Shown: in pieces, positions 5,361 through 55,399 of the stretch | How the letters are laid out: every line of letters starts with the position of its first letter | How positions within the stretch are numbered: the first letter of the stretch is position 1 | From: Polytrichum commune | Lineage: Eukaryota; Streptophyta; Polytrichopsida; Polytrichales; Polytrichaceae | Direction: 5' to 3' | DNA: 64,000 nt | Assembly (NCBI GenBank): GCA_950295325.1 | Contig: OX485805.1 | Coordinates: 30,429,501 to 30,493,500, forward strand | Position numbers and translations under genes: made by a program | The notes under the pieces: model-generated | Seen by the model: the letters and a program-made list of their open reading frames with translations, nothing else | What the model was told of the DNA's origin: nothing | Databases searched by the model: none

Positions 5361-5416
5361 ACTTCACACTTGAGCCAAGGGCTGTGACCATGAAATTGTG
5401 AGAGCCCAAAAGAAAT
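5361..5416 (+). mobile_element. Relic end of the GGGCCACTTCACAC Harbinger-like MITE
   Basis: CTTCACACTTGAGCC, GCTGTGACCATGAAATTGTG and AGAGCCCAAAAGAAA match the left end of the MITE copy at 51670 after its first few bases. The terminal GGGCCA has decayed and the rest of the element was not found next to it. Confidence 0.6.
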
Positions 5417-10340: not shown

Positions 10341-11082
10341 GTCAGCGACACCCCATGATAATAATAACATTAAAAAACATTTTATTTTAATGTTTTCTAA
10401 TTTTATTTTCAACATTGCATTACACTATAAATTTTAATATATAAATTTTAAAAATATAAATATGTATAATGGTTTTTGTTTGTTTGTTTGTTTGTTTGCT
10501 GGTTGGTTGTTTTTCAAAAATATTTTAAAAATAATAATATGTTCATTTACGACAATTCAATATATTAGGAACCAATTACAATTTAATTGATTGCCACAAA
10601 CCTTGATATGCTTCAAACCCACGTTTGTTTGATGAGCCATCCAATGGATCCTGAACTATTATCCACATGTTGCCAAGCAGGACGTCGTGTACATTTTTCG
10701 TCTATTGTAGTTTTGTTGGTCCTGTAAGCATGTGTGGTCTAGTGTAAAGCACATTTAAACCGTCTCCGGCTTCTTGAACGTTCACCGGATTCTTATATCA
10801 TGTGTCAAGGGATCCCAAGCTCTAGTGGAAAGCGGCCCTTAGTGAAGGTGTTGAGTTTTGGATCACATATTGTCCCAAACGATTGGAATCAATGTTTTCA
10901 CATTCCCAACGGTTGAGTTGACGTAGACACCACAAAGCTTACAATGATTGTTGCATGTTAATGTCCTTATCACATGTTAATTCTTATACTCACTATAGAA
11001 TCGTCGTTGATATATGTCAACTAGGTTTTAGCATGATACTCAAATTCAGGTCTTTGAAGCTACACGGATCATACTTACTAGC

Positions 11083-13229: not shown

Positions 13230-13298
13230 ATGACCTCTAGGAACTTTAGGAATTCCTGCCACCTTGTTGCTGGACTACAAGGCGAATTACTGCAATGA
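13230..13298 (+). promoter_or_regulatory. uORF overlapping the DUF1191 start codon (ATGA)
   Basis: In the presumed 5' leader an ATG at 13230 opens a frame of 22 codons whose TGA (13296-13298) overlaps the main ATG (13295-13297) in an ATGA arrangement. The peptide would begin MTSRNF and end ELLQ. Overlapping uORFs generally reduce main-ORF translation or require leaky scanning or stop-start reinitiation. It matters only if this stretch is in the mature mRNA, which I cannot confirm without transcript data. Confidence 0.5.
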
Positions 13299-14302
13299 AT
13301 GTCCGCAATGGCAAGGCATGGCGAGCTGGTGATGGTCATGGTGCATCTTTCCAATGCCGTCACACATTCCGGCATTGGCTGATGATGTCACTGTTAACGG
13401 GAATGGTGATGACAATGGTGTGGGGAAATGGAGAGATGCCCGCAATGGTGGCAGGGGAGGTGTTGCGAGAGAGTTATACAGTGGCCCCTGGGGTTAACCT
13501 CAGCTCATACAACGAAGCAATTCAACGGGCGGCTTACGAAGCCGTAGTGGCCGGTGGAGCGCAAACAGGAATTTTATACTCCGCCAATCTGACAGGGGAG
13601 CTTGCCAATGTGACTATCCAAGCGGTGAGATTACGAGTTGGTAGCTTGCGCAAACGAGGAGTTAGTCTCGGGAGGTTCACCATCCCACCGGGCGTCAAAG
13701 TGCTCAACTTCTCTTCACTTCGAGTCATCTTGGTGTACCGAGACTTCGGGAACGTGACAACGTACACATCTCCCGTGCAAATGGAAGCTCTCGTCTCCCC
13801 CGTGGTTGGAATCAAGGTTTACAATGGTGACATTCTCAATACGACGACACCGTTGCCAAGTCTTGAGGTTACGGCGTTCGGGGAAGCGATACAAGCTGCT
13901 GCGGTTCCGGAGGCGCGAGCGAAGCCTGTGTTCTGCGTGGAATTTAATGAGAATGGGACCAGTGTTATTAGTAATGTGACAACCGTGGGGAACTACTCGA
14001 GCTGTGCGGCGAAGTCGTTTGGGGATTTCGTGCTGGCGGGGCAGGCGCCTCCGGGGAAGAAATCGAATGCTTGGAAAATTGCAGTTGGCACGGTGGTGGG
14101 AGCGGTGGGGTTAATTGCTTTGGTGTTGATTCTTGCGTTCTTGGTGAGGAGGAGGTTGCGGAGGAGGAAAATTGCGAGGATGCAGTTTCAGGTGGACCAG
14201 GGGGAGACTCTTCGGTCGCATTTGATCGGGAATAGTCGAGCGCCGGGTGCTTCTGGTACCCGAACTCGACCACAGCTGGAGAAAGATTACCTTGAAACAT
14301 GA
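13295..14302 (+). CDS. DUF1191-family type I membrane glycoprotein
   Basis: A single open frame of 335 codons with no intron. Residues 1-26 are polar. A hydrophobic stretch at about 28-44 followed by AMVAG (50-54) looks like a signal peptide. The extracellular part (about 55-258) carries the DUF1191 signature blocks TGILYSANLTGEL (91-103), VRLRVGSLRKRGV (111-123), LRVILVYRDFGN (142-153) and SPVVGIKVYN (168-177). It has nine N-glycosylation sequons (N68, 98, 105, 138, 153, 182, 220, 227, 233) and two cysteines, C214 and C237, that could pair. A transmembrane helix spans about 261-284 and is followed by a basic stop-transfer run RRRLRRRK and a ~45-residue tail. This matches the plant DUF1191 layout in length and order; the biochemical role of the family is unknown to me. 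The start is the first ATG of the frame. Met30 or Met31, just before the hydrophobic segment, is an alternative. A 22-codon uORF ends on the start codon and may lower translation. Confidence 0.93.
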   Translation: MNVRNGKAWRAGDGHGASFQCRHTFRHWLMMSLLTGMVMTMVWGNGEMPAMVAGEVLRESYTVAPGVNLSSYNEAIQRAAYEAVVAGGAQTGILYSANLTGELANVTIQAVRLRVGSLRKRGVSLGRFTIPPGVKVLNFSSLRVILVYRDFGNVTTYTSPVQMEALVSPVVGIKVYNGDILNTTTPLPSLEVTAFGEAIQAAAVPEARAKPVFCVEFNENGTSVISNVTTVGNYSSCAAKSFGDFVLAGQAPPGKKSNAWKIAVGTVVGAVGLIALVLILAFLVRRRLRRRKIARMQFQVDQGETLRSHLIGNSRAPGASGTRTRPQLEKDYLET

Positions 14303-16426: not shown

Positions 16427-17091
16427 GAAGGTATGGGATGATTTGGGTGAACCAACCCACACACTTGTTCCTTGTTGGATGCCTAAGCCCTTGCCTTCAA
16501 GGAACTAGTGTACGGGTTGGTTGGTTCGTCCAAGGTGCATGGGACTAGGTAGCCCTTGAGGGCGGAGACTCCAGAGGGGTTACTGGACATAACCATTTTG
16601 GGATGATTTGGGTGAACTAACCCATACACTCCTTCCTTTTTGGATGCCTAAACCCTTGCATCCAAGGAACCAATGTACGGGTTGGTTGGTTCGTCCTAGC
16701 TGTATGGGACTAGGTGACCCTTGAAGGGCCGAGACTCCAGAGGGGTTACTGGACATAACCATTTTGGGATGATTTGGGTGAACCAACCCATACACTCGTT
16801 CCTTGTTGGATGCCTAAACCCTTGCCTCCAAGAAACCAATGTATGGGTTGGTTCGCCCCAAGCGTATGGGACTAGAGAATCCTTGAAGGGCCGAGACTCC
16901 AGAAGGGTTACTGGACATAACCATTTTGGGATGATTTGGGTGAACCAACCCATACACTCGTTCTTTGTTGGATGCCTAAACCCTTGTCTCCAAGGAACCA
17001 ATGTACGGGTTGGATTGTCCCAGCTGTATGAGACTAGGTGACCCTTGAAAGGCTAAGACTCCAGAGGGGTTACTGGACATAACCATTTTAG
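16427..17091 (+). repeat. Tandem array, four units of about 165 bp, each with a foldback module
   Basis: GGGATGATTTGGGTGAAC starts at 16435, 16600, 16766 and 16928, so the period is 162-166 bp. Each unit holds an inverted-repeat module, GAACCAACCCATACAC to GTACGGGTTGGTTCG, around CCTTGCCTCCAAGG. It then has the linker CGAGACTCCAGAGGGGTTAC and TGGACATAACCATTTT. Frames of 71-106 codons in both directions are products of the repetition. The same foldback module occurs alone at 49082-49165. Confidence 0.88.
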
Positions 17092-19835: not shown

Positions 19836-20288
19836 GTAGAAATACCATAACCCGTGAAAATAAGGTGATTCGCAATGAAGATCTGCTTTGACAATCATGA
19901 GATAATTTCCAAGATAGACGAGAAGAATTCATGAAGAATGCAAGTTGTTTCAAATTATTTTGACCTGTACAAAAAAAGCTACAATTTTTCAAAGTGGAAA
20001 GTTGTCAAACCCCCTACTCGTTCACTAGATTCTCCCTACACCGAACATGGTAATGCGCATTTCCATACAGAACATCGCCTAAATCGGTTACCTCATGAGT
20101 ACATTAACACTTGACTCCCATTGGCTACACTAAGTGTGCACGCATTAAAGTTGCCACCGAGCCATGATCCGTTTCAGAAATGGCACTTCACCATTATGAC
20201 GGCGGTCTAGTGCACGGCTAGAGAATGGTTAACCGCTTATGGTATTTCTACCTTAATTGGGGGGAGGGGCTCTATGTGGTCCCCCTAG

Positions 20289-20715
20289 GGTGGACTCTTC
20301 ATTGGAGACCTAAATGATGTGCGTATGTCACTATGAAATCACCCCCCCATATAAGAGAAGCTTATAAAGAAAAACAAATGTATACGTACTAACTGCAAGC
20401 TACAAAATGGTATTCTATAATAATATTTTTAAAATTTTATGTGATAAATGCCTCCACTACATATACAAAATATAAATCATGAATTAAGTAGGCCTTTATT
20501 ACATTAAAAATTTCACTTTCACTTTCTAATCAGATGAAATTAGCACATCAATTGTCAATGCTTATGTAAACCTTAGGCCCCATTGCACATCTACTTTTAA
20601 TTCAGAATTCTTGATATTATTTTAAAATGTACACAATATGTATGATAATGTTTCGAATAATACCCCTTCTTACACTCACATTAATTTGTACGTGGCATGA
20701 AGAGTCCACCCCCCG
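20289..20715 (+). repeat. Dispersed repeat, second copy of the 1433-2150 family
   Basis: GGACTCTTCATTGGAGACCT, TGTATACGTACTAACTGC, TACATATACAAAATATAAAT, AAATTAGCACATCAATTGTC and ACACTCACATTAATTTGTAC follow the order of the first copy, with the middle part deleted. A shorter relic lies at about 5485-5600. Confidence 0.6.
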
Positions 20716-21105: not shown

Positions 21106-22407
21106 AAGGACCTAGATATTCATTTATAGAATCTACACATATTCACTTGCGATAATCATGATTCATAATTAAATCAAAAGGAAGCCCGATTCTCAATCCA
21201 ATTGTTGCGCATACTTCATCATACATTTGTTGATGCAACACAAGTTTGTGTCGCGCAAATCTTGTTGAAAAACACAAAAGAAGAACGAACCGAAAACCAC
21301 CCACATACCTTAGTAAGAGTAAACCCGCCTCTCTATAGTATCCACCTTCAGAGCCCACCCACGTAAGGGCCGGTTCACACGGGGTCCCAAGTCCCAAGTC
21401 CCACTCATGTTGGCAAGTCCCAACATGGAGGCAACGTCCCACCTTTTGAGCCTCAAGAAACCATCAAAATATGGTTTTTCATCATTAAAGTCGGATCTTG
21501 ATTATTTCACGCAAAAAATTTCACGGAACTTGTGACGAGAGTCGGGTCCGACTTTCGCTCGACCCAACTCTCAACACAAGTCCCTCACCTCACCTCCAAA
21601 AAGCATCGCCATGTGGACATCCATGTCATACCTGACACTTTAAGGGCCACTTTATACACGGCCTGGGGCCAGCCGGAGCACCGGCCCGATTGAGGCCTCA
21701 ATCGGGACGCACTTTATGAACTTATTTCCGGCCCAACCTTGTCGCATGTAAAGTGGTGAGGCCCGATTCTAGGGCCCGATGGTCTTGAGGGTTAAGTTTC
21801 ATGGAACTTACCGTGGTCAATGCCCGGTGCTCTTGAGCATTAGTTACACGGCTTTTACTATGGGGGATGATCTCTATAGGCTTATGGTTAGGGGGTCAAC
21901 CTTGGGTCCCATTAGACTATATCGAGCCCTTTGAATCTAATTCCGGTGTCAAAATGCTCATATAAATTCACCTACCATGTACAATGGAATAACCGATGTA
22001 CCCGGTAACAAAAAAAAAACCAGAGTTGCAATGATACAATATTCATTATAGAGTAATCTATGTTTGTAGATATTAATTGGCTTCGTTCCGTTCGGGAACA
22101 TGACGACATTGAGCATATATTTTCGTGTGGGTTACTGATTGTAAGTAGGCATTGCGCCAACATTGTTGTCGTGCTTTTTATTTTTCAAGCTACATAAATT
22201 TATAAAACCATATCAACCTTTCTAAAGCCTCAATTAATTTTCTCTTTATAGATAAGAGATTTTATTTAAAAAATAATAATTCTAACCATAGTATAAGTTT
22301 ACATTATTGTTGGATCTAAGTGCGTGTAAACTTTTGAGCATGGCTCCACTTGGAAACTATCTTTGGCTTATTTTTGGAATGTGTTTGTTATGGTTAAAAT
22401 TGTGGAG

Positions 22408-23173
22408 TCACTTCACTAAACATGATATTTAGTGTGAGATACTATAAATACGATCACTAGACTAAATATCACTAACCCTATGAAAGTAAGTAACATTAAA
22501 TGCAAAATCAAACACTAAATATCATCCATGGTAATATGTGAAAGTTACATGCACGAATTTAGTGTTAGGAAGGATATGAAAAAAAATTAACAATGAGAAA
22601 AAAAGAAGGGACATGCCCGGGTACGCAACTCCCATATTATACGCAGGGGGCATCGTACTTAAAACGGCTTAGAGGACGGCTTTTGTAAAAATTATATCAA
22701 ATTATATCAAATTAAAATGATCAAAAAGTTGGGTGAAGACCAAATTAAATAAAATGAGATGAAAAAAAATTTGGGTTGCATATTTATTAAGCCTCCCATT
22801 AAAATTATAAGCCACGAATAGTTGCCTCCCATTAAAATTATAATTCATTCACAATGTTAAAATTTTATTAAAAAGTCCAAAAAGTTGGGTAGTTTGACCT
22901 ATGGTACCTGTATTAAAAAAAATCATAGAATTAGGTTTTAAATGCAATTATATGCTTCAAAATATATTCATTTCCTATATATAATTACATTTTTGGATTC
23001 CTTGTTAGAAGGGCTACAAGGGTTTCCTACATTAAAACAAATTGTATCACTCAATATTGGACTAAAACGCATTATAAGTGATTATAATCATGACCATATA
23101 ATACGGGAGTTGCGTACCCGGGGGGACATGGTAGTAGGGAAGGTGGTGGCGCATTTATGTCTAACACTAATTC
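22408..23173 (-). mobile_element. CACTAAAT-type DNA element, interrupted by the 507-bp MITE
   Basis: Outside the inserted MITE, this stretch matches the reverse complement of 7500-7781, for example CCTATGAAAGTAAGTAA, CATGGTAATATGTGAAAGTT and GTAGTAGGGAAGGTGG. The left end has the CACTAAACATGATATTTAGTG palindrome. The other end diverges after CTAACACTAATTC, so it is truncated or decayed there. Confidence 0.65.
22616..23122 (+). mobile_element. 507-bp MITE, CCCGGGTACGCAACTCC ends, 8-bp TSD (copy A)
   Basis: The element starts CCCGGGTACGCAACTCCC and ends GGGAGTTGCGTACCCGGG, a perfect 18-bp terminal inverted repeat, which continues as RTATTATA. It is flanked by the exact 8-bp duplication GGGACATG (22608-22615 and 23123-23130). 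Eight-bp duplications are typical of hAT elements, although these termini are not the classic CAGGG. The interior is AT-rich. A frame near the right end recurs in copy B but runs into the TIR and is not a credible gene. Confidence 0.9.
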
Positions 23174-23689
23174 TATGAAAAAATAATTAAGGGGAAGGTG
23201 GAAGGTGAGAAGGGGAAGGTGGAGGGGAGAGTAGTAAGGAGGAGAGGAAATGCTTTTACCCCTCCTATTGATTGATGGACAAGATTGGAACAATCCAACG
23301 GAGGAGCCCCATCCGGCCCTAGATGGCCATTCGGGACGAGGTAAAGCTCGTCCCGAAATCTCATCTAGGGCCCGATGGTTTGGCGCCAAAATTGTGCCAC
23401 CTAAGACGCCACATGGGATAGGTGAGTGTTCGGGCCGGCCCCAAGTATAAAGCCCTTGGGCCCGATTTGATGAAATCGAGCGATCCTATTGGTTCAAATT
23501 TTGAGAGTTCCGGCCGGCCCTCAATCCGGCCCCAAGTATAAAGTGGCCCTAAGACTTGGAACCCCGTGTGAAATGACAAGTCCCAACTTCCATGCTCTCA
23601 ACGGCTGAGATTGCACGGATCGACCTCCGGTGACTTAAGACTTAGCACTTGGTACCTGTACGAAGCGGCCCTACATTCACTTGCCACAT

Positions 23690-23845: not shown

Positions 23846-23857
23846 GGAGCAGTGATC

Positions 23858-24094
23858 GATCGGGGGGATTTTTGGGCATAATAATCGGTTGAGGTCCTAG
23901 TGTGTGTTTGCAAGTCCAACCGGTTACATGTTGACATCCTCCAGTTTTCCTTTATTAAGTTGGGGTGTATATATTCTATAAATTCCTCTAAAACGATCGG
24001 TAATTTTCCTGCAGTCTTGAACTTCAACCGGTTATTTCTCAAACTCAACCAGTTCATTTGTAACTAACTGACTGCCGGTTCTCCCCCATCATTG
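23858..24094 (+). repeat. Left arm of large inverted repeat (MULE-like long TIR)
   Basis: The arm begins GATCGGGGGGATTTTTGGGC, continues ATAATAATCGGTTGAGGTCC and CAAGTCCAACCGGTTACATG, and ends CCGGTTCTCCCCCATCATTG. The reverse complement of 24507-24745 matches it almost throughout. The AACCGGTT motif recurs four times in each arm. Long TIRs of this sort are seen in Mutator-like elements; no clear TSD was found. Confidence 0.82.
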
Positions 24095-24506
24095 AGGAGG
24101 AGGAGGAGGAGGAGGAGGAGACGCAGCATTCAATCCAGTCAATGTGGACTTCACTGGCAGCACGCCAGAGGCCAAAGTTCCTTTTCCTTTTCCTTCTCCC
24201 GCACCCCAAGCCCCAGACTCTGCTGCCGCATTGCAGAGACAGGGGAGGGGACCGACACCATAGCCAGAGGCCACAGCCCAGCTCAGCCAGCTCCACTCCA
24301 CTCCATTCTCTCTCTCTCTCTCTCTCTCTGGATCAGAAGGTCGCTTCTCTGTTATGTTAATGGTATGGCCCGGCCCAGTAGCAGGCACTGTTGTCTCACC
24401 AGTTGCACTGCTGGGCCTCAACTGGCCTGGCATTGCCTGGCTTGCCCTAGCCTGGTCTGGTGGCTGGCAGGCTGGCAGGCAGGCAGGCAGAAGGCTCATT
24501 CCCACT
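24095..24506. other. GC-rich spacer between the inverted-repeat arms
   Basis: This spacer is compositionally unlike its flanks. It holds a GGA run (about 24097-24120), TTCC/TTTTCC tracts, a TC run (about 24308-24330) and GGCA/CTGG repeats (about 24400-24490). It resembles the upstream regions of the two real genes here. It could be a captured host fragment in a Pack-MULE-like unit. Frames on both strands are low-complexity and unconvincing. Confidence 0.55.
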
Positions 24507-24745
24507 CAATGATCGGGGAGAACCGGCAGTTAGTTACAGATGAACCGGTTGAGTTTGAGAAATAACCGGTTGATGTTCGAGAGTGCAGGAGAATTACCGA
24601 TCGTTTTAGAGGAATTTATAGAATATATATATATATACCCCAGTTTCATAAAGGAAAACCGGAGGATGTGAACATGTAACCGGTTGGACTTGCAAACACA
24701 CACTAGGATCTCAACCGATTATTATGCCCAAAAATCCTCCCGATC
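24507..24745 (-). repeat. Right arm of large inverted repeat (MULE-like long TIR)
   Basis: This is the reverse complement of 23858-24094, with the same order of AACCGGTT-bearing blocks and the ATATATATATATACC stretch slightly expanded. The arms are separated by 412 bp. Confidence 0.82.
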
Positions 24746-27125
24746 GCTGTTCCCACTGTGCTGGATCTGTTCTGTTCTGTTCTGTTCTGTTCTGTTCTCT
24801 ACTCTACTTTACTCTGCTTGGCTCTCGAACTTAACTTAAGTTAGGGGACCGCTTCGAGAGGTTTCCAGCGAGCCCACACCATGAGCGCCTGCTCTGCAAC
24901 GCGACTGGAAACGCAGGCGCAAATGACCTCACCTTAATGCCACAGCATGGCCTATCCATCGTAGCTACAGGGCAATCTGTTTCGATCCATGGTATAGCCA
25001 AGCTTTACTTTTTCTTTTTTCTCTTTCTGAGTTTTAGGAAGTGCAGCTTCATCTCTCTGGACATTCACAAGTTAAGATGTGTTGTCTGGATGATATGGCC
25101 ATCGAACAGAAGATAAGCGTTCAGTGGTAGGGAAGGTGGGTTTATACGATACGCCGATCTAACATGAAGTGCCTAGAATGAGATCAACCGGTGGCGTTTT
25201 GGATACTTCGTGTTAGATTAGCGTGTCGTGTAGACTCACTTTTCTTACGAGTGATTATGGTGTGTTTAGGTGTCATTTTGGATCATTTTGTGTTAGATGG
25301 TCGTGTCTTTTGGATTTCTTCTCTGTTGAGTGCAACATTGATAAGTGGACTTCAAAATAAATTAAGAATAACAAGACACACCCACTTCGAGGGTACGTGG
25401 AGCTCCTCGAGCGCACCCCACCACCACCACGTAAACAAGACCCAACAAACCAAACTCACCGAGGACAATCCAATGTCATATTCGTCTTATATATATATGC
25501 ATGCTCGACCATTGGTCGAGTTGTGGATTTTGCCTTGGACCTTGGAGATTCTCTATGTGGGTGTTTTATTTTGAGACTCAGCATGTTGAGAATATCCTCT
25601 AATATGTTCCTGAACATTTTAGACAACATTCCATAGCACATGGGGCAAGGAGACCATGTTGAGTAATGTTATGTTAGGTAGTCATTGGGAGGCATTTTGT
25701 TTTCTAAACCCATTATTTCATATGGGATTCAGACTTAGGGGACATAACATTCTTCAGCCTCTATGGATTATTCTATGGGCCCTTAAATCTTGTGACATTT
25801 TTCTCAAACATTGAGTTGAGCTCGGGATCTAATATTTAGTACTCTCATTTTGAACTTGAGCATGTATTGTGCCTCTTGAGAAGGGCAATTGATAGTTATG
25901 ATTGAGATACTACTGTATGTTGTGACTGCTAGCTCTCCATGTTTAACGCTACTTACTCTACTAGCCAATATTGAGAGCTAGGACTTACTCGACATTATGA
26001 TGCACATGCTAGGCTAGGCAAGGTCTTAGATAGAAAGTGAACATAAGATGGCTACTGAATAATGTTATGGAGATCTTCTTCTTCTTCTTTGTGAAAAATG
26101 ATACGTGTACCTTAAACCAACATCAAACCTAAACCCAACACTTTGTAGTTAGGCCATACATTACAGGTTCAAATGTATGACCTTGACACATACTGTCAAA
26201 TATGCCTACCTTAGTAATTATATCATTGGCGGACATGCTATTACACATGTGTTTTGTCTTTTGTGAACACTTCATTTTGCCTCCATCTATGTACATGCTA
26301 CCAATGGCAGTCCCTTCTCCTTTTCCAACATTCCATCCACTTTTTAGAGAGAGAAAACTCTTTAGGGGTGCCACATCATTGGACATATGACTACATAAGG
26401 TTTGAGGGTGTTTTGATTGATGGCGTTGCAAATGTTTCTCTACCATTGGTTTTCTAGGCCATTTAAGGGAAGGTTGCATCCTACTTCCCACCCATAAGCT
26501 CATGTATGTATCTAGAATGTTATTGCCCACCAATTATGTCATAGGGCCCCTCTCTTGGCTGACCAAGTCTAGTGAGCCGTAGGGCATTGGGTAGAGGGAA
26601 TTTGTCATACAATTTGTGGGCAATGAGAATTTAATATCTATGCATTTTGGAAGTGGGACATAGCATGTGGTCTTGCCTTTAAAGGCCCCAAAAGCCGATG
26701 ATAGAGACCCATTTGCGGCTCCAACACTAGAGATGCCTCAATGAAAATAAGGTCTTCATTGCCTCCCTCCAATCCTTTGTAGTTTTCTTTCTCTCCCTCT
26801 CTCCCTCTCCTACTTTATAAAAAAAGTAGGTCTTCTTTGTCCTCATGTGCATTTTGTTTATGCAAGCTCTAGTAATTTCAAGGATCTTGACTGCCTAGTA
26901 TGTATTCCAAGGAGAGTGCAGAAGCTTGCAAAATATGAGGAGATAACCAAGGAAAAAAAAAACGACATAAAACTTTAGTTTACAAAAAATTACTGTATTG
27001 ACGGCCATGATTGTTCAATGTTTCCTTCAATATGGTTTTATTGATCATTATGGTCCAAACAATGTGTACATGACTTAATAGGTCCCAACACCAATTCCCG
27101 TAGCCTTATCCCTTCCCCCAATCGG
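24746..27125. other. No supported gene
   Basis: It includes a TGTTC run (about 24768-24796). A minus-strand frame of 134 codons (26129-26533) has no motif I recognise and no neighbours to support it. It may be a decayed transposon protein. Confidence 0.5.
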
Positions 27126-27133
27126 TTGCTGCT

Positions 27134-27689
27134 CCCGGGTACGCAACTCCCGTATTATATGGTCATGATTATAATCACTTATAATGCGTTTTAGTCCAAT
27201 ATTGAGTGATACAATTTGTTTTAATGTAGGAAACTCTTGTAGCCCTTCTAACAAGGAATCCAAAAATGTAATTATATATAGGAAATGAACATATTTTGAA
27301 GCATATAATTGCATTAAAAACCTAATTATATGATTTTTTTAATACATGTACCATAGGTCAAACTACCCAACTTTTTGGACTTTTTAATAAAATTTTAACA
27401 TTGTGAATGAATTATATTTTTAATGGGAGGCTTAATAAATATGCAACCCAACTTTTTTTTCATCTCATTTATTTAATTTGGTCGTCACCCAACTTTTTTT
27501 TCATCTCATTTTATTTAATTTGGTCTTTACCCAACTTTTTTTTCATCTCATTTTATTTAATTTGGTCTTCACCCAACTTTTTGATCATTTTAATTTGATA
27601 TAATTTGATATAATTTTTACAAAAGCCGTTCTCTAAGCCGTTTTAAGTACGATGCCCCCTGCGTATAATATTGGAGTTGCTGACCCGGG
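27134..27689 (-). mobile_element. 556-bp MITE, copy B of the 8-bp-TSD family, inverted
   Basis: The left end CCCGGGTACGCAACTCCC is intact; the right end has decayed to GGAGTTGCTGACCCGGG. Flanks are TTGCTGCT (27126-27133) and TTGCTACT (27690-27697), an 8-bp TSD with one mismatch. It is opposite in orientation to copy A, about 4 kb away. It is longer because an ~38-bp unit (CCCAACTTTTTTTTCATCTC and following) is present three times at about 27447-27580, against once in copy A. Confidence 0.88.
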
Positions 27690-32098: not shown

Positions 32099-32325
32099 TA
32101 GTGGTAAGAAATTGTGATTCCGTAATTCTTACTTACTCCAAGGGAAAAAAATGAGAATATGGTCATATAAAATAAGTGACCAACACATGATATAAGTTGT
32201 TGGTCATTTGTAGCAACACAAACTTCCTTTCACATCCCTATAATGTATGATCTAAATGCAAGATTACAAAATTGAGGTCAATTTAAGATAGGACCAATTT
32301 TGATTTTTTTTTCATAATATTATTT

Positions 32326-32466
32326 AGATCCATAACATTGTGTTGTGAGACTGACAATATTCCGTGTAATATTCCCTGATATTCCCCACATTCAGTCTGA
32401 ATGTGGGGAATATCTGGGAATAGTATGTGAAATATTGTCAGTCCCACAAAACAATGTTATGGATCT
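32326..32466. repeat. 141-bp near-perfect hairpin with a one-base centre
   Basis: Arms 32326-32395 and 32397-32466 are 70 nt each and pair with about 8 mismatches, clustered mid-arm, and effectively no loop. The outer end is AGATCCATAACATTGT and the centre ATTCAGTCTGAAT. It could be a foldback MITE or a young small-RNA precursor. Flanks ATTATT/ATTAAT hint at a target duplication but are not conclusive. Confidence 0.85.
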
Positions 32467-35400
32467 GATTAATGGTATGTTTAGCCTCAAATTTTATTAA
32501 GTAAGCCTTAAGCCCGCATGTGTAACGTCATGAGAGCCTGGAGACATAAAGGGCTCCAGGCCATTTACTTCATTAAAGAAGGGCGAAGTAATTATATAAT
32601 CAACACACCTAATTGTCATACTTTTAAATTTTTAAAAATACTCTCATGATTCTGACCTAAATCTAAATGATAAAAGTTTATAAGGAACCATTAAACTCAA
32701 GAACTTTAAAAACAATCGCACAACGTAGGTGGGCCTTAAGTGGTAACTCTTCTAAAGTAAATACCTATACTTAGGGGTTGTTTACGTCATGGATCATGAA
32801 GTCGTCCCTTGCTCTTCTAAAATATATGATTGGTCATTGAACTCGTCCCAGGACCACTTCGGTTTACATTAAGAAACAAGTGTAAGAGTCACCATGGAAC
32901 GTGAGGTTCCCATAAGGTCCATTTTGAAGCCCACATTATCCACTGTCACGGTCCAACGGGTTTGGCAGTGAGTGAGGCAAAAGTCAAGAGACCATGGCAA
33001 AGAAATGTGTTTTAATCCTTTTAATATTTAAAAAAAATGCCAAACATTATTGCAATTAAGAGGAGAGAAGGGGAGAGGGTAATTTTTTTAAAATAGAATT
33101 TCAAAACTACCCTTTTTGGGCATATATTAAAAAGATCTTCACATCCACTTTTTGGTGCATGGTCACTCCTCTTGATCCACATTTGGTTTACACCTAGTGA
33201 AGGGCCAAAGGCTTTAAAAAAATTATATTTTCTAGAAATTTGATCACAAAAGTGTGACCATGAAAAAAGGCCACCAAGAAGACACACAATGTTATAACGA
33301 CATTGGATCACGTGCTAAAAATAAAACAAAATAAAATAATATCAACCATTAGAGGTTTAATTGTTAACACAATTAAGAGGACCTTTGTGATCACTTGAAA
33401 AGAAAGAGAATCTACGCTTTGACTTCCAATGGTTGTTTGCATCTACAATGTGATCATGAAACTTGAGATGACAATTCTCAATTTAATCCAATGGTTTTTT
33501 TTTTTGGTTTTTTTTTCCCGTGGAGTTGGAAGTGCCCACAATAGATCACATTAGGTTAGAGCTCACGATTGGTAAGTGGGAATACCAACATCATGTGATC
33601 TAGATATCAATAGGTAGGTATCCTTAAAATTTGTAGCAAAGCCTTAAACGTGTGTGTTTTAAGATGACATAGTTTTTAGATGGTTGTATATGTAGTAAAA
33701 GAAGGATGATTCCAACATTTGCCAACACTAGTATGACTTCAACGTGTCTCTCGAGCAATGGAGATATTAGGAGACCCTCAATCGAGCGGTCTCCTAAGTT
33801 CTTTTCTTTTCATTTGATTGCTTCAAACTAGGGCGATGTTTGTTGATCCCAATTGGAAATACAACCCCTTAATTTGCACCCTATTTGAATGGTTGATTCA
33901 CTTAGTGACCTCCACATTATTGGGTATTCATGCATACTCTAGGATAGTTTCTTGGACAACACTAAGGTGGATGGATCTTAAATGGTTACTTTTCAAACTA
34001 GTCTACTTCTCCGAGGATACCAACACACAATTAGTACAAGACGGTTAGCAAATCCAAATCGAGGCCATAGCCACTTCCGTCATATTTTTTGGAGCTTATA
34101 TGGACATCTTAGTCATCATCAACATGAACATTTCTTGTGCCATTAAATGGTCATATAGGTCTCCCCCTAAGTATATTGACTACTAAGCTTAAAATAGCTA
34201 TCATATTTTGATCACGTAGTCCGGTATCTTTTAAACGCATGTCTTTTCTATATTTGTTCTTGGAACCACACCAAACCATATACCGCTCAAATACAGGTGT
34301 TCAAATAAGATAAGCAATTGAAGCAAGCACATTTACCTTATGGGTATTGCGGTTCCTGAACATTGGTCCTCTTCCACTATATGGGTTTGAATATGAACCA
34401 GAAACCTCTTATTGTAGTAGAGCATAAAACCATCTAGTGAAAGAGAACTAACGATAAGGAAAAAATAGTGATCCTTGTCATGAACCCCACACCACAAATT
34501 CCCAAGCACTCAAATGATTGGCCTTGCTTTGTTCCATGAAAGGTCCTAAACGTCCAATTTGCACCTCATCAAAACATTCTACAAATGTGTTTTTTTTTTT
34601 TTTTTTTTAACGATTAATTGCTATGATTTTTAGTTTGTCATGCAAGAGTGACCCTTTCTAAAACGAAACTATATATTAACCATATTTTTCAATCGAAGGA
34701 AACAAATATGTAGAAGAAGATCCAATGAGATTCGGGTTCAATCGCATATTGAATACATGTTCTCATCAATTGTCGCTTCTACTTTTGCCATAGGTTGCAC
34801 TTTATATATTTTGAATCTTATAAACCAAGTAGATGAGTACGTCACTACTTGTTGGAGGATTGCATTATTCGGCATTTCATTAGTTCTACAATCAAAGTAT
34901 GTTGATGCGTTGAAACCTTGAAAGGCTAAACACTAATTGCTCAACATGTTTTTAACAACCGTAATGATTGAGGTAAATGGTTTTTGCAAGGCTAATTCTT
35001 AGTTGTCCTCAAAATATGCGCATGGTAGGTCATCTAACATGACATTCATAAGGGTGAAATCTACATTTTGTTTTTTTAACAATGTACAACAATCAACTAA
35101 AAAGGATCAACTAAAAACCTCTGATGTGGGTCCAATAGGTGGCATCTACATATTCATGAAATAATATATATCTCAAAAACATGGATCTGAGTAAGAGTTT
35201 AGTATCTTCTTCCATATATGTTAGAATGAGTGAACCTTATACTAAATGTTGTGAGGTTGTTTGCTTGTTTCAATCACAAAACCACCGTTTGGTGATGAGC
35301 ATGTACAACACAAATTAATTTTAGTTTTGGGCGAAGTGTCATGTGTTATTTTATAGTTACTTAAAACCTCCACAAAATTTCATGTGTCACATTAAAAAAT

Positions 35401-46285: not shown

Positions 46286-47065
46286 CTAACAAAATGGCGA
46301 TCTATGAGGTGTGCCTTTCCTTCTCTTCACAGATACCGGTACAATTACAGACTTCGGAGAAGTCACAATCGCGGAGAGACGTCCGCTACGGACCTTCTTC
46401 GGCAACAACAGCGTTGAAGCTGTGGAGGCTACTCCTCCAAACCCAGTCCCGTCACTTCCCGTTGAAGTGGAGGAAGTTTGCGCTCCTGTTTGCAGATCAT
46501 CAAACGGCGAGTCAGCGAGAAGCTCCTCCTCATCGCTGTCGTTCTTCTTCAAGCTGTGGGTAGGCGAGCAAGAGAAGAAGCCGTAAGGCGGCTGCTGTTT
46601 GTTATCAGGAAGGAGACTCGCAATATCTTTTCCCGATCGAATTACCGCGTCTACCTTACACGCCACGGAGCAGTATAAATAACCATCTTGTAGACTTCTG
46701 TCGCAGGTTGCACAAGCGTTCCCAAGCCCTTTCGATGGGCGTGGCTGCGGCCGTTGGTTGAGAAAGACCACTCTGGCGCTGTTGATGATGTATGTTTGCA
46801 CTTGCTGGCAGTCGAGTAGCCGTTGAATGTCTTGTAGACGTATCACATCGTGGTAAACATATCGCCGGATCTGGAGGAGACAGTGCTTGTGGTGGCTGGG
46901 AACACAATGCTGACAGACTCCCCCATTGCAGTCTACACAGAATACATTGCGTTCGTTCTTTTTCAGTGCGGCGTGCTTCGTGCAGGGGACGAAGAATTTC
47001 TCTGTCAGCAGCGCGTCCAACCACGCTGGCTTCTGAGGTATCACGGATAAGTCGTATCCTACCAT
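46286..47065 (-). CDS. PLATZ-family zinc-finger transcription factor
   Basis: A complete, intronless frame of 259 codons. PLATZ proteins are plant-specific zinc-dependent DNA-binding proteins that bind A/T-rich sequence and act in the nucleus, often as repressors. The start AUG sits in a strong context (GCCATGG) and is soon followed by the family's KPAWLDALL. The first zinc module is C28-x2-H31-x11-C43-x2-C46-x4-C51-x2-C54-x3-H58-x2-H61. Then come the conserved LLQIRRYVYHDVIRL (63-77) and INSARVVFLNQRPQ (94-107). The second module is C118-x2-C121-x10-C132-x3-C136. A Ser/Thr/Asp-rich linker (about 166-220) leads to KRRKGTPHRSPFC, the canonical PLATZ C-terminus and a likely nuclear signal. All metal ligands are present, so it appears functional. 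Many seed-plant PLATZ genes have introns, so the lack of one is notable. The specific orthologue is not assigned. Confidence 0.96.
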   Translation of the reverse strand: MVGYDLSVIPQKPAWLDALLTEKFFVPCTKHAALKKNERNVFCVDCNGGVCQHCVPSHHKHCLLQIRRYVYHDVIRLQDIQRLLDCQQVQTYIINSARVVFLNQRPQPRPSKGLGNACATCDRSLQDGYLYCSVACKVDAVIRSGKDIASLLPDNKQQPPYGFFSCSPTHSLKKNDSDEEELLADSPFDDLQTGAQTSSTSTGSDGTGFGGVASTASTLLLPKKVRSGRLSAIVTSPKSVIVPVSVKRRKGTPHRSPFC

Positions 47066-48050
47066 GGCTCCAATAGCAAGCTTGCAACGAGGGTGTGCAA
47101 CGATTTGGTCAGGTCAAGTCAGGTCAGGTCAGGTCAGGTCAGGCCTTCTTCCTTCAAAGAAGGATGATCTCTACCCGACGAGGAGCGAGGAGTGTGGTTG
47201 ACCTTGTCATAGATTTGGCTGCTGAGCAAGATGAGTTGCAGAAGAATAGCCTGCGAAGACGACTGTAGAAGACGACATGAGCTCCAGCCACCTTTATGGC
47301 GCGCAAGGTGGAGAATCTAAGGCGCGCAAGGTGCTGAGAGTGTCCAAGACAGTCTTAGAGGAGACATCTAAGTCGTCCAGAGTTGCCAATTGAGGAAGCC
47401 TTCCCATATGAGACAGATCAGGCCACTGAAGATCAGCAGCTTCTTTTATCCACCTTGGTGTAGCCTCCAGTGGTCAACAGTGCCAAATTGCCCTCAAGAA
47501 CTAACCAAAACCACTACTAAACTCCTTCCCCGCGAGTGTGTCTAAACAGTCTCAATTGTACTACCAAGTCACCTCAAGAAAGCCGCTCTCACCTCTAATT
47601 CCCTGAGCACACACACCAACACACGCAAACCTCTTGAGAATGTGCCACTTCTTTCAACTCATTCACTCACTCACTTCCTCACTACAATTGCGCACCTGCA
47701 CCACTCCCCATCACACAATTTCCCGCACTCCCAAGAGCTCACACCTCTCCAACTCACTTCCAGCCGCCTCCTAGCTCTCCTTACAATTCAAACAATCTAA
47801 GATCTCCCAGTCCACACTAACCCCCCTCCCAATTCAAGAAGCCCGTACCAAAACTCAAGCGCAATTGCCTCAATTACCAGCCTACACTTTCAGATCCACT
47901 GAGCCACTCCACAGCACAGGCAGATCCCCTCCTAGTAAACCACTCCCTTGGCAATTGACCCAACCTCCCCCCTCCTCTCACACACTAGCGCTCAACCACT
48001 CTTGACGCCTCCAATTGCTCCACAACAGCTCCCAACGGCGCAATCGAGCG
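47066..48050 (-). promoter_or_regulatory. Upstream (5' UTR/promoter) region of PLATZ
   Basis: On the minus strand this is the immediate upstream sequence of the PLATZ start. It has a pentanucleotide GGTCA run (about 47108-47142), a duplicated GGCGCGCAAGGTG (about 47299 and 47322) and then a long stretch rich in CACTC/ACAC on the plus strand. No TATA box was placed. Beyond 48 kb it grades into a GC-rich, then pyrimidine-rich, region that may include the distal promoter. Confidence 0.4.
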
Positions 48051-49070
48051 AGTGCAGCCCCCGAGCGGCTCCGAATGGCGCAATCAAGCGCGTGGCGACC
48101 CTAGGGCGGCCCTGGCGGCGCAATTGAGCAGCTGCAGAAGTCGAATGAATGAGGCGCGAGCTCCGCCTCCAGAGGCAGCTGGTAAACTAAGAAGGACGGA
48201 CAGAGTGCGTGAGCAGGCGGGAGAGGGAGGGAGGGAGAGGGGAGTGCGGCGGTGGTGGCAGAGCGAGGGAGAGAGCGAGCGAGCGAGGGAGGGGAGCAAG
48301 TGCGGGGCGAGGGGGAGCGAGGCGGGCTGAAGAGGGGAGGGCGAGGGGGCGTGAAAAGAGCGGCGCGGCGAGGTCTATGGGCTCGGAGCTCTTCTGCCCT
48401 GCTCTTCCGCTACTGCTACCCCGCCCTGCCTGCCTGCCTGCCTGCCTGCTCGCCCTGCGGCCGCTGCTGTCTTCTCGGCTGGCCATGGCGGGAACGCGGA
48501 ACTCCACTGTTGCTGCTGCTTCTGCATCTCCACCACCACCCCCCCTCCTGCATCTCTCTCTCTCTACCCATCCTCTCTCCTCCATCCTTGCTGTAGGCAT
48601 CTTCTCTCCTCTCTCTCTCTCTCTACATGTCCTCTCTCCTCTGTCTTCGGTGGAGGCATCTTCTCTCCTCTCTCTAGTCATCCTCGCCCCTCTCCCTAGG
48701 CCTCTTCTCTCCTCTATCCTTGGTCTACGCATCTTCTCTCCTCTCTCTACTATTCTCTCCCCTATGTCTTCGGTGGAGGCATCTTCTCTCCTCTATCCTT
48801 GCTCGAGCATCTTCTCATCCTCTCTCTACTCATCCTCTCTCTAGACCTCTTCTCTCTATCCTTGCTCGAGCATCTTCTCTCCTCTCTCCGACGTCTTTGG
48901 TGTAGGCATCTTCTCTCCTCTTTCTAGGCATCCTCTCTCTAGACCTCTTCTCTCCTCTATCCTTGCTCTAGCATCTTCTCTCCTCTCTCTATACCTCTTC
49001 TCCCTCCTCTAGACATCCTCTCTCCTCTGTCTAGGCATCTTTTCTCCTCTGCATTTTCGACCAGGGCTGA
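48020..49070. repeat. GC-rich block followed by a pyrimidine minisatellite
   Basis: 48020-48500 is GC- and CpG-rich, with loosely repeated GGCGCAAT-type units (about 48035-48130), a purine-rich GAGGGAG stretch (48210-48350) and a TGCC run (about 48428-48448). From about 48560 to 49060 the plus strand is nearly pure C/T. It consists of irregular repeats built on CATCTTCTCTCCTCTCTC and CTTGCTCGAGCATCTTCTC. Frames in this block, including one of 211 codons, are low-complexity artefacts. Confidence 0.7.
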
Positions 49071-49081
49071 AAGAGGCGGCT

Positions 49082-49165
49082 GGGGCAAACCAACCCATAC
49101 ATTGGTTCCTTGGAGGCAAGGGCTTGGGCATCCAACAAGGAACGAGCATGTGGGTTGGTTCGCCC
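49082..49165 (-). repeat. Single 84-bp foldback module, as in the 16.4-kb array
   Basis: The left arm GGGGCAAACCAACCCATAC pairs with the right arm GTGGGTTGGTTCGCCC, and the pairing continues into TTGGTTCCTTGG and CAAGGAACGAG. The sequence is the reverse complement of the module in the 16427-17091 array. Confidence 0.75.
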
Positions 49166-50801
49166 AAATCTTAGAGAGACATGGTCCTAGAATGCATAGT
49201 GAAGGTAAGGGGACCCAATCATAGTCTTTTCTTAATACGCCTTTTCAATCCTCATTATCGGGGAGGCATTACCTCGATCTATTGATCTACCTATCTATCT
49301 ATCCATATGCACCAATTTCACGTGCAATTAGGTTGTCCCACGTTCATTTATCAACGTTCCACACTACTTTGAGTTTTTAGTACCACGGTAACTAAATACA
49401 AGTATTGTTTTCTTATTGTGGTTTTTATGGGTACGATTGAACAAAGTTGTAATTTTGGTATATTGATTTTGACACCAAGTGATTTGCATGTGTAAAGAGC
49501 AACCTAGTTGCGCATACCAATGTACCCATTGCATGCTAGGGAAAGCATCCAAGATCAAAGACACTGCAAAATCAAGCAATCATGTTGGTCAAGAGTAAAA
49601 TCTTGACCCAAGAATTTTGGACACTAGGGTCCATGTCCAAGGTATGAAAAAATGGGAGTAGTGTTAATGTGGAATCACTCTCCCATCAAATTTCGGCAGC
49701 TTTAATTCGTATAAATACTCCACCTAGTTGGAGTAACCATTCTTCAAGCTTGGGTCCCATCTTGAGTTTGAAAATAAGGGGTGCATTGGACCCGAACTCT
49801 AATGTAAACCTACCTTAAGTTTACATGTTTCATTTTGGTATCTATGACCTTTTTGTATAGTGTATTGCATTTAAATGACCATGTTCCCAATATTGATTGT
49901 CATACGGAACGGGCCACATCATAGAAACCTTACGCATCGAGGCACTTGAAGTGTTACTCTCATGCCACATCAACATTGCATCTTCTAATCAACAATTACA
50001 TGGCACATGGAATTGCCTCTCAATAGAATAACTATTACGTGTCCCAGGAATGGGAGGGGGGGTAAGATATTTTGTGCCCCTCTGGGACAAAGGCACATTA
50101 AAACCTTAAGGTCCATACATAGTTGCCTTATGAGTCCATGCACTTTAATTTAATCTCATGCCATGTCAACATTTGCATGTCTTCTAACCAATAATCACAT
50201 GTCACCTCCTCTTGAAAGAAAATAACTCATTTGTGTCACCGGGGGGGGGGGCATGGTATACATTATCACATGGATCGGCACATATATGTATGGACAAAAT
50301 GTGAACGGTGTCTTTTGCTACGATGAGCATGTTTTCTTAATACCTCGCACATAAACAATATGAGACCAGGCGTGAACATAAGAACATACACCCAAAATAC
50401 ATCATGTGTTCAAAAGAGATCGGACTACAAATTCAACATTCATTAACGATATTAACAAATCATCTCGCACTAAGTGTATCATGCGAGAAGTGATGGTTTG
50501 GAGGAAAGTGTACGATTAAGGCCCGCTTTGGTTAAGTGTATCTTCATTGTTCAAGGGGCTTTCTTCTATGGTATGGTGTTTGATGGGATGCATGTGAAGA
50601 TGACATAGTGAGAACTTCGACATAGAGGGGTCATAGGTTAGGGAGCGAGACACACAAAAACATGCAGGTCATGGGGCCCGAGCTCATACTCGGAAGAGTA
50701 CTGGCTTTGTAATCCAAAAGGATCCAAGGGAGAGTAACTTACTTCACGTCGGGTCAGGGTTCAGAGCAGCAAGGCTCACACAGAGTTTGGGCAATTAGAA
50801 T
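49166..50801. other. No gene seen
   Basis: Decayed repeats with a G-run (about 50240-50250) and a CTAT run (about 49292-49302). No supported frame. Confidence 0.55.
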
Positions 50802-51089
50802 TTAGGGCCACTTCTCACACACATAAGCCCAAAGAGCTTTGTGCGATTGTGAGATTGTGAGATTGTGAGAGCCCGAATAAAGTTTCCGAAGGCCGTCCCA
50901 AGACACTTTTCAAAATCGTGTGAATTTAGGGTGGTCACGGGCCCTCATGTGTGGTGTGAAGTCATATGTGACGGGCCTCTCAACCGAATGTAATTTCAAT
51001 GAATTTCTATTCATGCATGGTGCTCACACGTGATAAAATAGAGTGAATTGATGGTTAGGAGTGCCATGGTCTCCTGGTTTTTTTGCTAA

Positions 51090-51576
51090 GGGCCACTTCA
51101 CACCAGAGATTGAGAGCCCATGACCAATACACTTCAAGTGCTCTTGTTGGTGGGAAAGGCGGAGCCGGTCCAAGTTCGTTGCACACTACACTTGAGAGAT
51201 GAACAGCGTATGCGAATGCAAGATGGGTGTAAAGTCGACATGGATTCGTGCATGGCTGCAAATGGATCATGTGTCACTTGGACTATTTTCAAAAACCGCC
51301 TCTTGGAGGTAGGCCTCACACAAAACCGGGAGACCATGGCACTCCGAACGCTCACAAATATTGATTTATTGTATTTTATCAAGTGTGAGGACCTACATGA
51401 ATAGAAATTCATTGAAATAGAATTTGGTTAAGGGCCCAATCACATATGACTTCACACTACACTTGAGGGTCCATGACCACACTACATAATTTTGGAGGTG
51501 GGTTGGGACGGCCTTTGAACACTTACTTTTGGGCTCCCTCATGGTCACGGCTCTTGGCTCCTGTGTGAAGTGGCCC
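51090..51576 (-). mobile_element. PIF/Harbinger-like MITE, inserted copy 1 (inverted)
   Basis: A 487-bp element, GGGCCACTTCACACC at the left and GTGTGAAGTGGCCC at the right, with imperfect TIRs of roughly 38 bp. It is flanked by TAA on both sides (51087-51089 and 51577-51579). It lies in reverse orientation relative to the copy it interrupts and to the copy at 51670. The interrupted host sequence resumes cleanly: the intact copy reads GTTAAGCCTACC where this insertion sits. Confidence 0.88.
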
Positions 51577-51669
51577 TAAGCCTACCTCCAAGAGGTGGTT
51601 TGTAAAAATTGACCAAGTGAATATGAAACATAGTCCATTTGATGCCATGTAGGAATTCATGTAGACTTT

Positions 51670-52168
51670 GGGCCACTTCACACACAAGCCAAGAGCCGTG
51701 ACCATGAAATTGTACGAACCCAAAAGAAAGTGTCCAAAGGCTGTCCTAACACACCTCCGAAATCATGTAGTGTGGTCACGGACCCTCAAGTGTAGCGTGA
51801 AGTCATATGTACCTGGGCCCTCAACCAAATGCTATTTCAATGAATTTCTATTCATGCCAGTCCTCACACATGATGAAATAGAATAGATCAACAGTTGTGA
51901 GCGTTCGGAGTGCCATGGTCTTCCGGTTTTGTGTTAAGCCTACCTCCAAGAGGTGGTTTTTGAAAATAATCCAAGTGACCATGAAACATGATCCATTCGA
52001 TGCCATGTAGGAATCCATGTAGACTTTACATCCATCTTGCATTCACATACTCCGTTGGTCCCTCAAGCGTAGTGCGAAGCGAACTTGGACCGGCTCCGCC
52101 TTTTCCACCAACGAGAGCGCTTGAAGTGTAATGGTCACGGGCTCTCAACCTCGTGTGTGAAGCGGCCC
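51670..52168 (+). mobile_element. PIF/Harbinger-like MITE, inserted copy 2
   Basis: A 499-bp element, GGGCCACTTCACACACAAG at the left and GTGTGTGAAGCGGCCC at the right, flanked by TTT (51667-51669 and 52169-52171). It is inserted in the same host element at the sequence that reads GTAGACTTTACATCC when intact. With copy 1 it makes two ~490-bp inverted arms 93 bp apart. Confidence 0.87.
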
Positions 52169-53254
52169 TTTAACATCCATTTTGCATTCACTTAACTCTA
52201 CTAGTCCCTCAAGCATAAGTGTGAAGCGAACTTGGACCGCCTCCACCTTGTCCACCAATGAATGAGAGTGCTTGATGTGAAATGGTAGCGGCCCTTATAA
52301 AAGTATGAGTCAAATATTGCATATAATATAATACGGTAGCCCGAAGTTTACCATGGCTCACTGCTCGTTTCAAATTTTATCCAAAATTGGAAACCAATTA
52401 TCACAGAACATTGCATTAGATTATTCAGCTTCTCTGAAGTGTTTATGTGGGTCCAACAAATCCAGGTAGGTCACTTATTCTCGAGCCTTGAGCATCGATT
52501 CAAATATTTATGACACTCATTCTCAACTTTTAAGAATGGTTTAGGCCTTCTACAAATGGCGGTTGCTAATTCGGGAATTTGGGTATTGTAGATCTTAAAT
52601 GGTTTACTAGTAGACATAAGGTCTAGCCACACATCTCAGTTAAGGTTCCAGTTAGAGTAAGTAACCACTCAAATTAGTTATATTGTGCCCGCACTGCATG
52701 GTTAAGAGACTTTGTTAACATATGAGGTGGCTAATCTATGTGAGAGCTAATCCTTCTCTGGGTCATACCACCTAATTCTAATCAAGGTTTAAATAAAATT
52801 TATGAAAATAGAAGTTAGCTAACTTTCGAGACTTTGTTTTTGTGAGGAAATCTTGATCATCCATACCCCTACTGCTAACAAATATGAGTAGCCCAAGTTT
52901 TTGTCTTGAATGTTTGCCTTTCATTTTTCCCATCTCTTCTCCGTTCCGCTACAAGGTGGACCACGTTGTTTCTTACATTATCCCACATTAGCATACATTT
53001 TAATAATATAAAATAATATAAAAATATCATATTTTTTCAATGTTCCAATTTAGATATTTAGTATTACATAATGGTAATGTATTTTAATTGTAATGGAACA
53101 CAAATGATGCGGGCCGCATAAATATAATGTATCATAATTAGTGTCATTTTCAAAACTTGGGCAAGTTGAGCAAAACTTTGGTCAGTCAACCTTAACTCCT
53201 CTCTCAAATTGATCATCGTTCGGTTGATGCGATTGGTTAGCTCACATGTGAGTT

Positions 53255-53397
53255 ACTATAGAGGGCTCCCTAAAGTGCCGGAATGTCGTCTCCATGTGGG
53301 ATACAAGTGGGTCATGGCAAACGTGAGCACAACATGTGGCAACATTTGAGGGGGAAATAATTCTTTTGTGTTGGAATAGAGAGCCCTCTACGGTAGT
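53255..53397. mobile_element. 143-bp MITE with TAGAGGGCTC ends (copy 2)
   Basis: ACTATAGAGGGCTCCC at the left and GAGAGCCCTCTACGGTAGT at the right. The interior TGGGATACAAGTGGGTCATG and TTTGAGGGGGAAATAATTC matches copy 1 with an internal deletion. TA lies at both sides of the GAGGGCTC core. Confidence 0.75.
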
Positions 53398-55399
53398 TGA
53401 TTTCACAAACTCACATTGTTAGCTAATTCTCCTAGGTAAACGATGTGACCATGAGTTTAGTTAGCTAGAGTTTTGGTTAGCTAATCCACACTAACTCGTA
53501 AGTTAGCTAATTCTCTTAGCTAGGTGGTGCAGTTGGACCCACACAAATCTAGTCCCGCTAGCTTAAACTGGTTGAGTTCCTGTCATTTAAAACATGACTT
53601 CATCACGACTTTATCAATATTGAATTGTTACCACATTTTGATACCCACGGATAGGTTCTTCAATAACGATACTTAATGTTGATACCTATGTGTTCACCTA
53701 TATACCGGTCCAACATCAAACTTATGAACACTATCACACAACCATTCAAATCCCCACTCGGGATGGTGAGGCCCACAAATGGGCCTCCATGCATGGGAGA
53801 TGGGAGATGGAAGTTGGAAGGGTTTTGTAATGGAAAAGTATCCGGCCCATGGTTGCGGGTAATAGGAATAATTCAGCTATGGGGGGTCCCAAACCAATTG
53901 CGTTCTCAAGCCATGATATGTGAGCCCGTGCATGCCAAACACCTCCGTGTATTGTAAGTACATATCATGCACACATCCGACATCATCATATATGATATCT
54001 TAGGCCTAACTTTATACAAAGCGGCCTTCAATAAGTTCAACCCTTTGAAGCGATACCACAATTCAAGTATTTGAATTTTGGTGAAATGATTTCATGCCCT
54101 TTTTCCCTAATTCAAGGAATTCACGATGTTTTTTTTGTGACGACCATTTAAGTTTACTTCCCTATCGCCCATATGAATTGTAACATTATTTAACCTCATG
54201 TTGAAGTTTTGGTGGGTCATGTGTTATTTATGATTTTTTTTTTGACATGTCCATGTTTGTATTTGACAAAATTCGGTCACCTTAGAAGTACATCTAGTTT
54301 GCAAGGTTTAGGGCTGATCACATGGTCAAAATATTTTATTTAACATCCGTGTTACAATTGATTGTGTGTTTACAACCATGGAAGTTCAGTATGAAGATGA
54401 AAAATGTTATGTTCATCATTGACCCACAATATTGTCTTACATTCACTTGGTGGTAATTGGAGAGGGTGTCATATAACACTTGGTGCTACATGACGAGTCA
54501 TGAAGGCTCCTTCAAATTAACATGGCACACTAAATCATATAAATAGTCTAGTAGTTAGGTCATCACCGTGTTGTGGCATGGTTCAAACAAACATATTTGT
54601 TGTGTTTCCACATGGACGGGAACTACATAGCTTTTGCGAATCTACCTTTTACTCGTAGTTAACAATCACTTTTTGCCAACTAAGGGACAATGTATATTCG
54701 TGTTGTTGAGAGGGAATAGTTTCATACAAGTATACCCCCTCCTCCATTCATTGAGAATGCCTTTAAATTGTACGTAGCATGTAGGTTGTTTTTTCTACAA
54801 TCGACTTGACAATGAGAAGAGCTTCTAGGACTCTTGACAAGTATATCGAGGCACGTTTGGGAGCAATTGATCATAACCCCATACGGGGGCGTGCATTTAA
54901 CATGGATGAATGCGATGTTCCCTCTCACAACGCGATGTTATGTAGCACAAAGGTTGTTTTTTTGAAGACAATCTAAGACTACAACTGAATTCAAAACTCT
55001 CGATTAGTTCAATTTTTAAAATAATCAAGATAACCAACTACAAAATCCAAATCGTTTTGTCACAAACGCAATCGCCATGAACATCTTGAAAACCATAACT
55101 TTGTTTGTTGTGGATAAACATACTCGTATTTAGATGAGAACATCGAATAACACTCACTCATGGCTTCATCACTCCAATGATTGTCACCCTTAGGACTTCC
55201 TTATAGATTCGATAAAAAAAAAGGAGGGGTTGGTTTTGTATACCTACCCATGCTACAAGAGTAGAGGAGAAAGAAACACCAACGTGGAAGATCCCGAATT
55301 GACTCTCTCAATGTGCGAGACACGCAATGGAGTGAGCGATTCAATTCACGTAGGTTAGGTCCAACTAGGTTACGCTTAGGTACGGCCAAAGGGAATGGC
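53398..55399. other. No gene seen
   Basis: AT-rich. A TATACAAAGCGGCC end (about 54013) resembles Harbinger-type termini but has no partner that I could place. Confidence 0.5.

Follow-up and report, generated by a model that had tools for sequence, protein, structure and literature searches.

Three copies of one repeat family, two of them inside the third, form a nest at positions 50802-52297 of the window, the term used here for the whole 64,000-nucleotide stretch of Polytrichum commune DNA under analysis. The host MITE is read on the forward strand and is left in three parts. Its left part (50805-51089) starts with GGGCCACTTCTCACAC and is preceded by a TTA target duplication at 50802-50804. 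The middle part spans 51580-51669. The right part (52172-52294), whose terminal repeat has lost 25 bp and keeps only the end AGCGGCCC, is followed by the second TTA copy at 52295-52297. Without the inserts, the three parts add up to 498 bp.

Between the left and the middle part of the host lies an inverted MITE insert of 487 bp on the reverse strand (51090-51576). It is bordered by TAA on both sides: the left copy (51087-51089) consists of the final three bases of the left host part and the right copy is found at 51577-51579. The third MITE copy, 499 bp long and oriented as the host (forward strand, 51670-52168), separates the middle part from the right part. Its TTT duplication occupies the final three bases of the middle host part (51667-51669) and, on the right, positions 52169-52171. 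A preliminary description of this DNA had reported three copies with TTA/TTA, TAA/TAA and TTT/TTT duplications, and each of these is present where it had been placed.

The coding content of the window was surveyed with Pfam. Only two of the 71 stop-to-stop frames of at least 90 codons score above the curated cut-offs. A PLATZ transcription factor frame (46289-47113, reverse strand; E 2.7e-30) lies ~3.7 kb from the nest. The other frame (13250-14299, forward strand) matches DUF1191 with E 1.7e-32, besides a weaker TNFR-type match (E 1.1e-5). The distribution of the PLATZ and DUF1191 families suggests a land-plant source. A pattern for the PLATZ protein matched 53 prokaryote stretches; tblastn identified no relative among them, an outcome which is expected for a plant and carries little weight.

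Termini and target duplications

Both inserts are bounded exactly by the GGGCC...GGCCC termini, which are in agreement between the two inserts and also match the left end of the host. In the inverted insert the terminal 14 bp are identical at both ends (GGGCCACTTCACAC), while in the third copy 15 of the first 16 terminal bp match between the ends. If mismatches and gaps are admitted, the terminal repeats reach ~36 bp; the repeat of the host is damaged. The GGGCCRCTTCACACA pattern, searched with up to three mismatches, gave 14 matches compared with 1.75 expected (100 shuffles, maximum 6), and five of the 14 are ends of the nest's three copies. The sixth end, on the right of the host, was missed by this pattern search and by the paired-end scans, strict or relaxed. 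Damage to its right terminal repeat explains why the host copy is absent from these scans.

The paired-end scan combined all 38 GGGCC with all 56 GGCCC places lying 80-6000 bp apart and required identical 3-bp flanks as well as at least 11 matches among the 16 terminal bases. It returned four pairs: both inserts, a 1906-bp element at 21644-23549, and 51432-51576. The last of these was rejected as an element, since it pairs a GGGCC from within the inverted insert with the insert's own end. When one mismatch was allowed in the duplication, the number of pairs rose to 15 and the sole new one retained was 21367-23671; the other pairs were mostly mixed ends of different elements or had flanks bearing G or C. 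Furthermore, a scan for TWA-flanked repeats starting with G (80-800 bp, 12 of 14 bases matching) found only 51090-51576 in the window, and none in five of five shuffles.

Repeats of the right-end module inside the element might have been bound by the transposase or might have been older nested copies; this idea was discarded in the absence of a signal above shuffles. In ungapped comparison the inverted left end agrees with the 36-base module at 19 positions, as does one internal place; a best ungapped match of at least 19 was reached in 87 of 500 mononucleotide shuffles. In gapped self-comparison the terminal pair scored E 1e-4, and the short internal matches (E >=0.014) were too weak.

In this window the chance of a 3-bp match at such distances is 0.019. 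Three duplications out of three would arise by chance with a probability of ~7e-6, assuming independence and ends that are fixed by the terminal repeats. The corresponding sites in the other copies were also inspected. At the TAA site, the third copy is continuous (GTGTTAAGCCTA) and retains the TAA itself, and the inverted insert, which reads GTGTGAGGCCTA, is continuous as well. The TTT site is continuous in the third copy (GACTTTACATCC) and in the inverted insert (GACTTTACACCC); the host minus its insert reads GACTTTAACATCC, which has one extra A relative to both. As aligned, the TTT site appears slightly less clean than the TAA site, and a TTT duplication remains the simplest reading. The alternative of a TTA duplication altered later was set aside: by our count by eye it needs about three changes, compared with the one extra A. 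Boundaries, duplications and continuous paralogous sites together confirm the earlier claim that two inserts belong to the same family as the copy which harbors them.

Family relatives and superfamily assignment

The family displays the attributes of a MITE: a length of 487-499 bp, terminal inverted repeats, three target duplications and, within the window, three copies and two fragments. Its copies fall inside the range of 50-800 bp which a passage of PMC12550479 states for MITEs. Neither of the two open frames (96-97 codons) within the inverted insert has a Pfam match.

The two fragments were recovered with an nhmmer profile built from the nest's three copies. One represents the left end (profile positions 6-60; 5361-5415, forward strand; E 1.7e-10) and is also found by blastn. 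The other is a diverged right end (profile positions 300-499; 10639-10838, forward strand; E 1.9e-10) that finishes with GGCCC, followed by TTA. With these two further fragments in the window, the MITE family is therefore dispersed. A profile match at 4736-4798 (E 0.12) was left uncounted as a family member. An exact 25-mer from the family interior had no match among viral contigs, and the third copy matched no plasmid at E <=0.01; both results are expected for a plant and have little weight. Three terminal strings of the family occurred in none of the papers covered by a literature text search. This absence from print leaves the family possibly described, because families are rarely printed as strings.

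A second nest is located at 21367-23671. Its outer element of 396 bp has the ends GGGCCGGTTCAC and GGGCCGCTTCGT and the flanks TAA/TAC, and is interrupted by the 1906-bp element (21644-23549; ends GGGCCACTTTATAC, TAA/TAA). In blastn comparisons of these elements with the three copies, the best E was 0.24 and the terminal 14 bases were among the matches. As nothing better than E 0.24 was obtained, the elements of the second nest are different families with like termini. Two further sequences, 22616-23122 and 27134-27689, are inverse copies of each other with ends like CCCGGGTACGCAACTCCC. The former lies inside the 1906-bp element; an 8-bp GGGACATG duplication apparently borders it, so that the nest would have three levels.

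The family of the first nest is likely a Tourist-like PIF/Harbinger MITE, a fit that is based on the 3-bp duplications and the termini starting with G. Membership is likely rather than proven because no transposase was found in the window: all 71 stop-to-stop frames of at least 90 codons were compared with Pfam (E <=0.01), and none matched a transposase. The preliminary description had called the elements Harbinger-like, a character that is supported here, short of proven superfamily membership.

The three nest duplications, TTA/TTA, TAA/TAA and TTT/TTT, all have the 3-bp length expected of PIF/Harbinger elements. In passages of PMC4482050, PIF/Harbinger duplications are given as TWA and PHIS groups are distinguished by duplication type. 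Two of the three duplications in the nest are TWA, or three of four if 21644-23549 is counted; 21367-23671 has TAA/TAC, and the TTT of the third copy lies outside TWA, as had been claimed. The termini can be compared with a screen in Medicago, in which, according to a passage of PMC2213677, complete PIF/Harbinger-like elements were selected by terminal repeats that are 14 bp or longer and contain G(N)5GTT. The nest termini GGGCCACTT have CTT instead of GTT at positions 7-9, although this motif is the search criterion of one Medicago study and may not hold throughout the superfamily. The nest elements are like mPing and the MtPH families in having 3-bp duplications, usually TAA/TTA in those families, and terminal repeats starting with G (passages of PMC2836001 and PMC2213677). 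Unlike them, they have termini (GGGCCACTTCAC) without G(N)5GTT, one TTT duplication and no transposase source found in the window.

These same differences (one TTT among three duplications, duplication type being what separates PHIS groups, termini without the motif, and no transposase among the 71 frames) would suit another superfamily with 3-bp duplications, such as CACTA-like elements, or another PHIS group, rather than a strict-TWA PIF/Harbinger family. We consider such an origin unlikely. CACTA elements start with CACTA or CACTG. The nest elements, in contrast, start with GGGCC. In addition, among the window's GGGCC-ended elements, three of four perfect duplications are TWA (TTA, TAA, and the TAA of 21644-23549), and the left end of the outer element at 21367, GGGCCGGTT, fits G(N)5GTT.

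The inverted pair and the age of the copies

The inserts form inverse arms of 487 and 499 bp with a spacing of 93 bp (51577-51669), in agreement with the preliminary description, which had given arms of ~490 bp at this distance. An RNA covering 51087-52171 is predicted to fold with -799.9 kcal/mol and 86% of its bases paired, and the other strand with -825.1 kcal/mol, whereas 12 mononucleotide shuffles of the same segment ranged from -297 to -324 kcal/mol with 58-62% paired. Per base, the predicted energy is about -0.3 kcal/mol for a single copy versus -0.74 for the pair. Perfect stretches of 27, 25, 24 and 21 nt are common to both arms. The nest could in principle act as a hairpin locus, at which read-through transcription would produce long double-stranded RNA and thereby silence the entire family; for maize, a passage of PMC10004981 describes siRNAs likely derived from a MITE. 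This role seems improbable to us. The predicted fold is strong because the arms are inversely arranged, and any inverted pair of equal length would fold likewise. Moreover, the arms are 12% diverged, and Rfam yielded no match at the gathering threshold in 48000-55000. Double-stranded RNA from the nest is only a prediction of folding.

Comparison of the arms also addresses how the pair arose. The two inserts are 87.9% identical, with differences at 59 of 487 positions (K2P 0.134), and the inverted insert is without two 6-bp pieces relative to the third copy. Just outside the arms, the flanks have inverted-similarity scores of 9 and 9, compared with a 95th percentile of 10 for 500 random pairs. 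A local inverted duplication, for instance by template switching during repair, would explain why the arms are only 93 bp apart and in opposite orientation, but it is very improbable for arms that stop exactly at their termini, carry separate duplications (TAA, TTT) at separate host sites, have diverged by these substitutions and two 6-bp deletions, and are flanked by sequences no more similar in inverse orientation than random pairs. Two independent transpositions do explain the pair, in which each insert has its own duplication and site. An alignment had been proposed in the preliminary description as the check between local duplication and insertion; with distinct sites, duplications and divergence, it came out for insertion.

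The host is more distant from both inserts. Mismatches with the inverted insert number 99 in 452 positions (78.1% alike) and those with the third copy 87 in 464 (81.2% alike), the host being one base short at a join in these comparisons. Relative to the third copy the host has deletions of 1, 9 and 25 bp, 35 bp in total, and insertions which sum to 34 bp. The host length of 498 bp restored in the preliminary description is therefore a correct figure, yet its match with 487 and 499 bp is no evidence: it is a coincidence, because the indels of the host offset each other.

The host is older than both inserts, so that this part of the relative insertion history proposed earlier is retained; the nesting itself gives no order between the two inserts. 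In 452 ungapped columns, private substitutions number 62 in the host, a count that takes in the common branch of the other two copies, 33 in the inverted insert and 18 in the third copy. The difference between 33 and 18 (p = 0.049) is a weak hint that the inverted insert may be older than the third copy, weak because the substitutions may predate insertion.

Nesting as a process and further repeats

The nest was very probably formed when an old non-coding Tourist-like MITE, residing at a TTA site, was later struck twice by its kin via cut-and-paste transposition. The family, probably that of a land plant, would be non-autonomous and would depend on a transposase supplied in trans. This enzyme would make a staggered 3-bp cut, and repair would duplicate the cut site. 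After insertion of the older copy at TTA, two members that are more similar to each other entered the host, one at TAA in inverse and the other at TTT in direct orientation. MITE nests are probably seen because existing MITEs would be tolerated targets that offer AT triplets.

Nesting of MITEs within their own family is common, according to passages of PMC3695323 and PMC10664404 which cite Jiang & Wessler 2001 (Plant Cell); the same passage of PMC10664404 reports 11% of rice MITEs in multimers. The nested and multimeric MITEs of rice and maize described in that work, as related by the citing papers, are likewise self-nesting. They involve other families and other termini, whereas here a single host carries two insertions, one per orientation. 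In carrot, DcSto1 with a nested DcSto2 and a nested Tourist-like MITE was likewise read from target duplications (a passage of PMC3695323). The DcSto1 host is a Stowaway element with TA duplications, unlike the host here. Excerpts of PMC12550479 and PMC2997013 contain nothing on self-nesting. The nest is an ordinary, well-preserved example of already documented behaviour and leaves the known picture of own-family nesting unchanged. It cleanly records two insertions by members of one MITE family into a third copy and supplies reliable ends for family annotation.

A preference for kin was also considered. All three elements of the window that combine well-matched GGGCC termini with a perfect 3-bp duplication sit in older GGGCC-ended elements, and the two host elements make up 1.4% of the window. 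It is conceivable, if improbable, that the family's machinery is drawn to elements whose termini are alike; new copies would then preferentially enter old ones, and the resulting inverse pair would become a self-made source of RNA that silences across the family. Two of the three elements come from the preselected nest; the unbiased count is therefore one of one, in a host covering 0.6% of the window, and proves nothing by itself. If true genome-wide, preferential insertion into kin would bear on the harmless spread of MITEs and on their silencing.

Several other repeats were observed in the window. At 32313-32479, a near-perfect fold-back with 83-nt arms (86% complementary, 1 nt apart) resembles a small hairpin MITE. 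An inverted repeat at 23857-24746 has arms of ~220 nt in two pieces, 93-94% complementary, and encloses an open frame of 165 aa that lacks a Pfam match. A unit of ~165 bp is repeated four times in tandem at 16434-17055, where two overlapping frames match Pfam families only below the cut-offs (E 0.006 and 0.009); related inverse sequence occurs at 49079-49170. Lastly, another dispersed repeat family is represented at 1433-1654, 5543-5611 and 20287-20501, with 61-80% identity.
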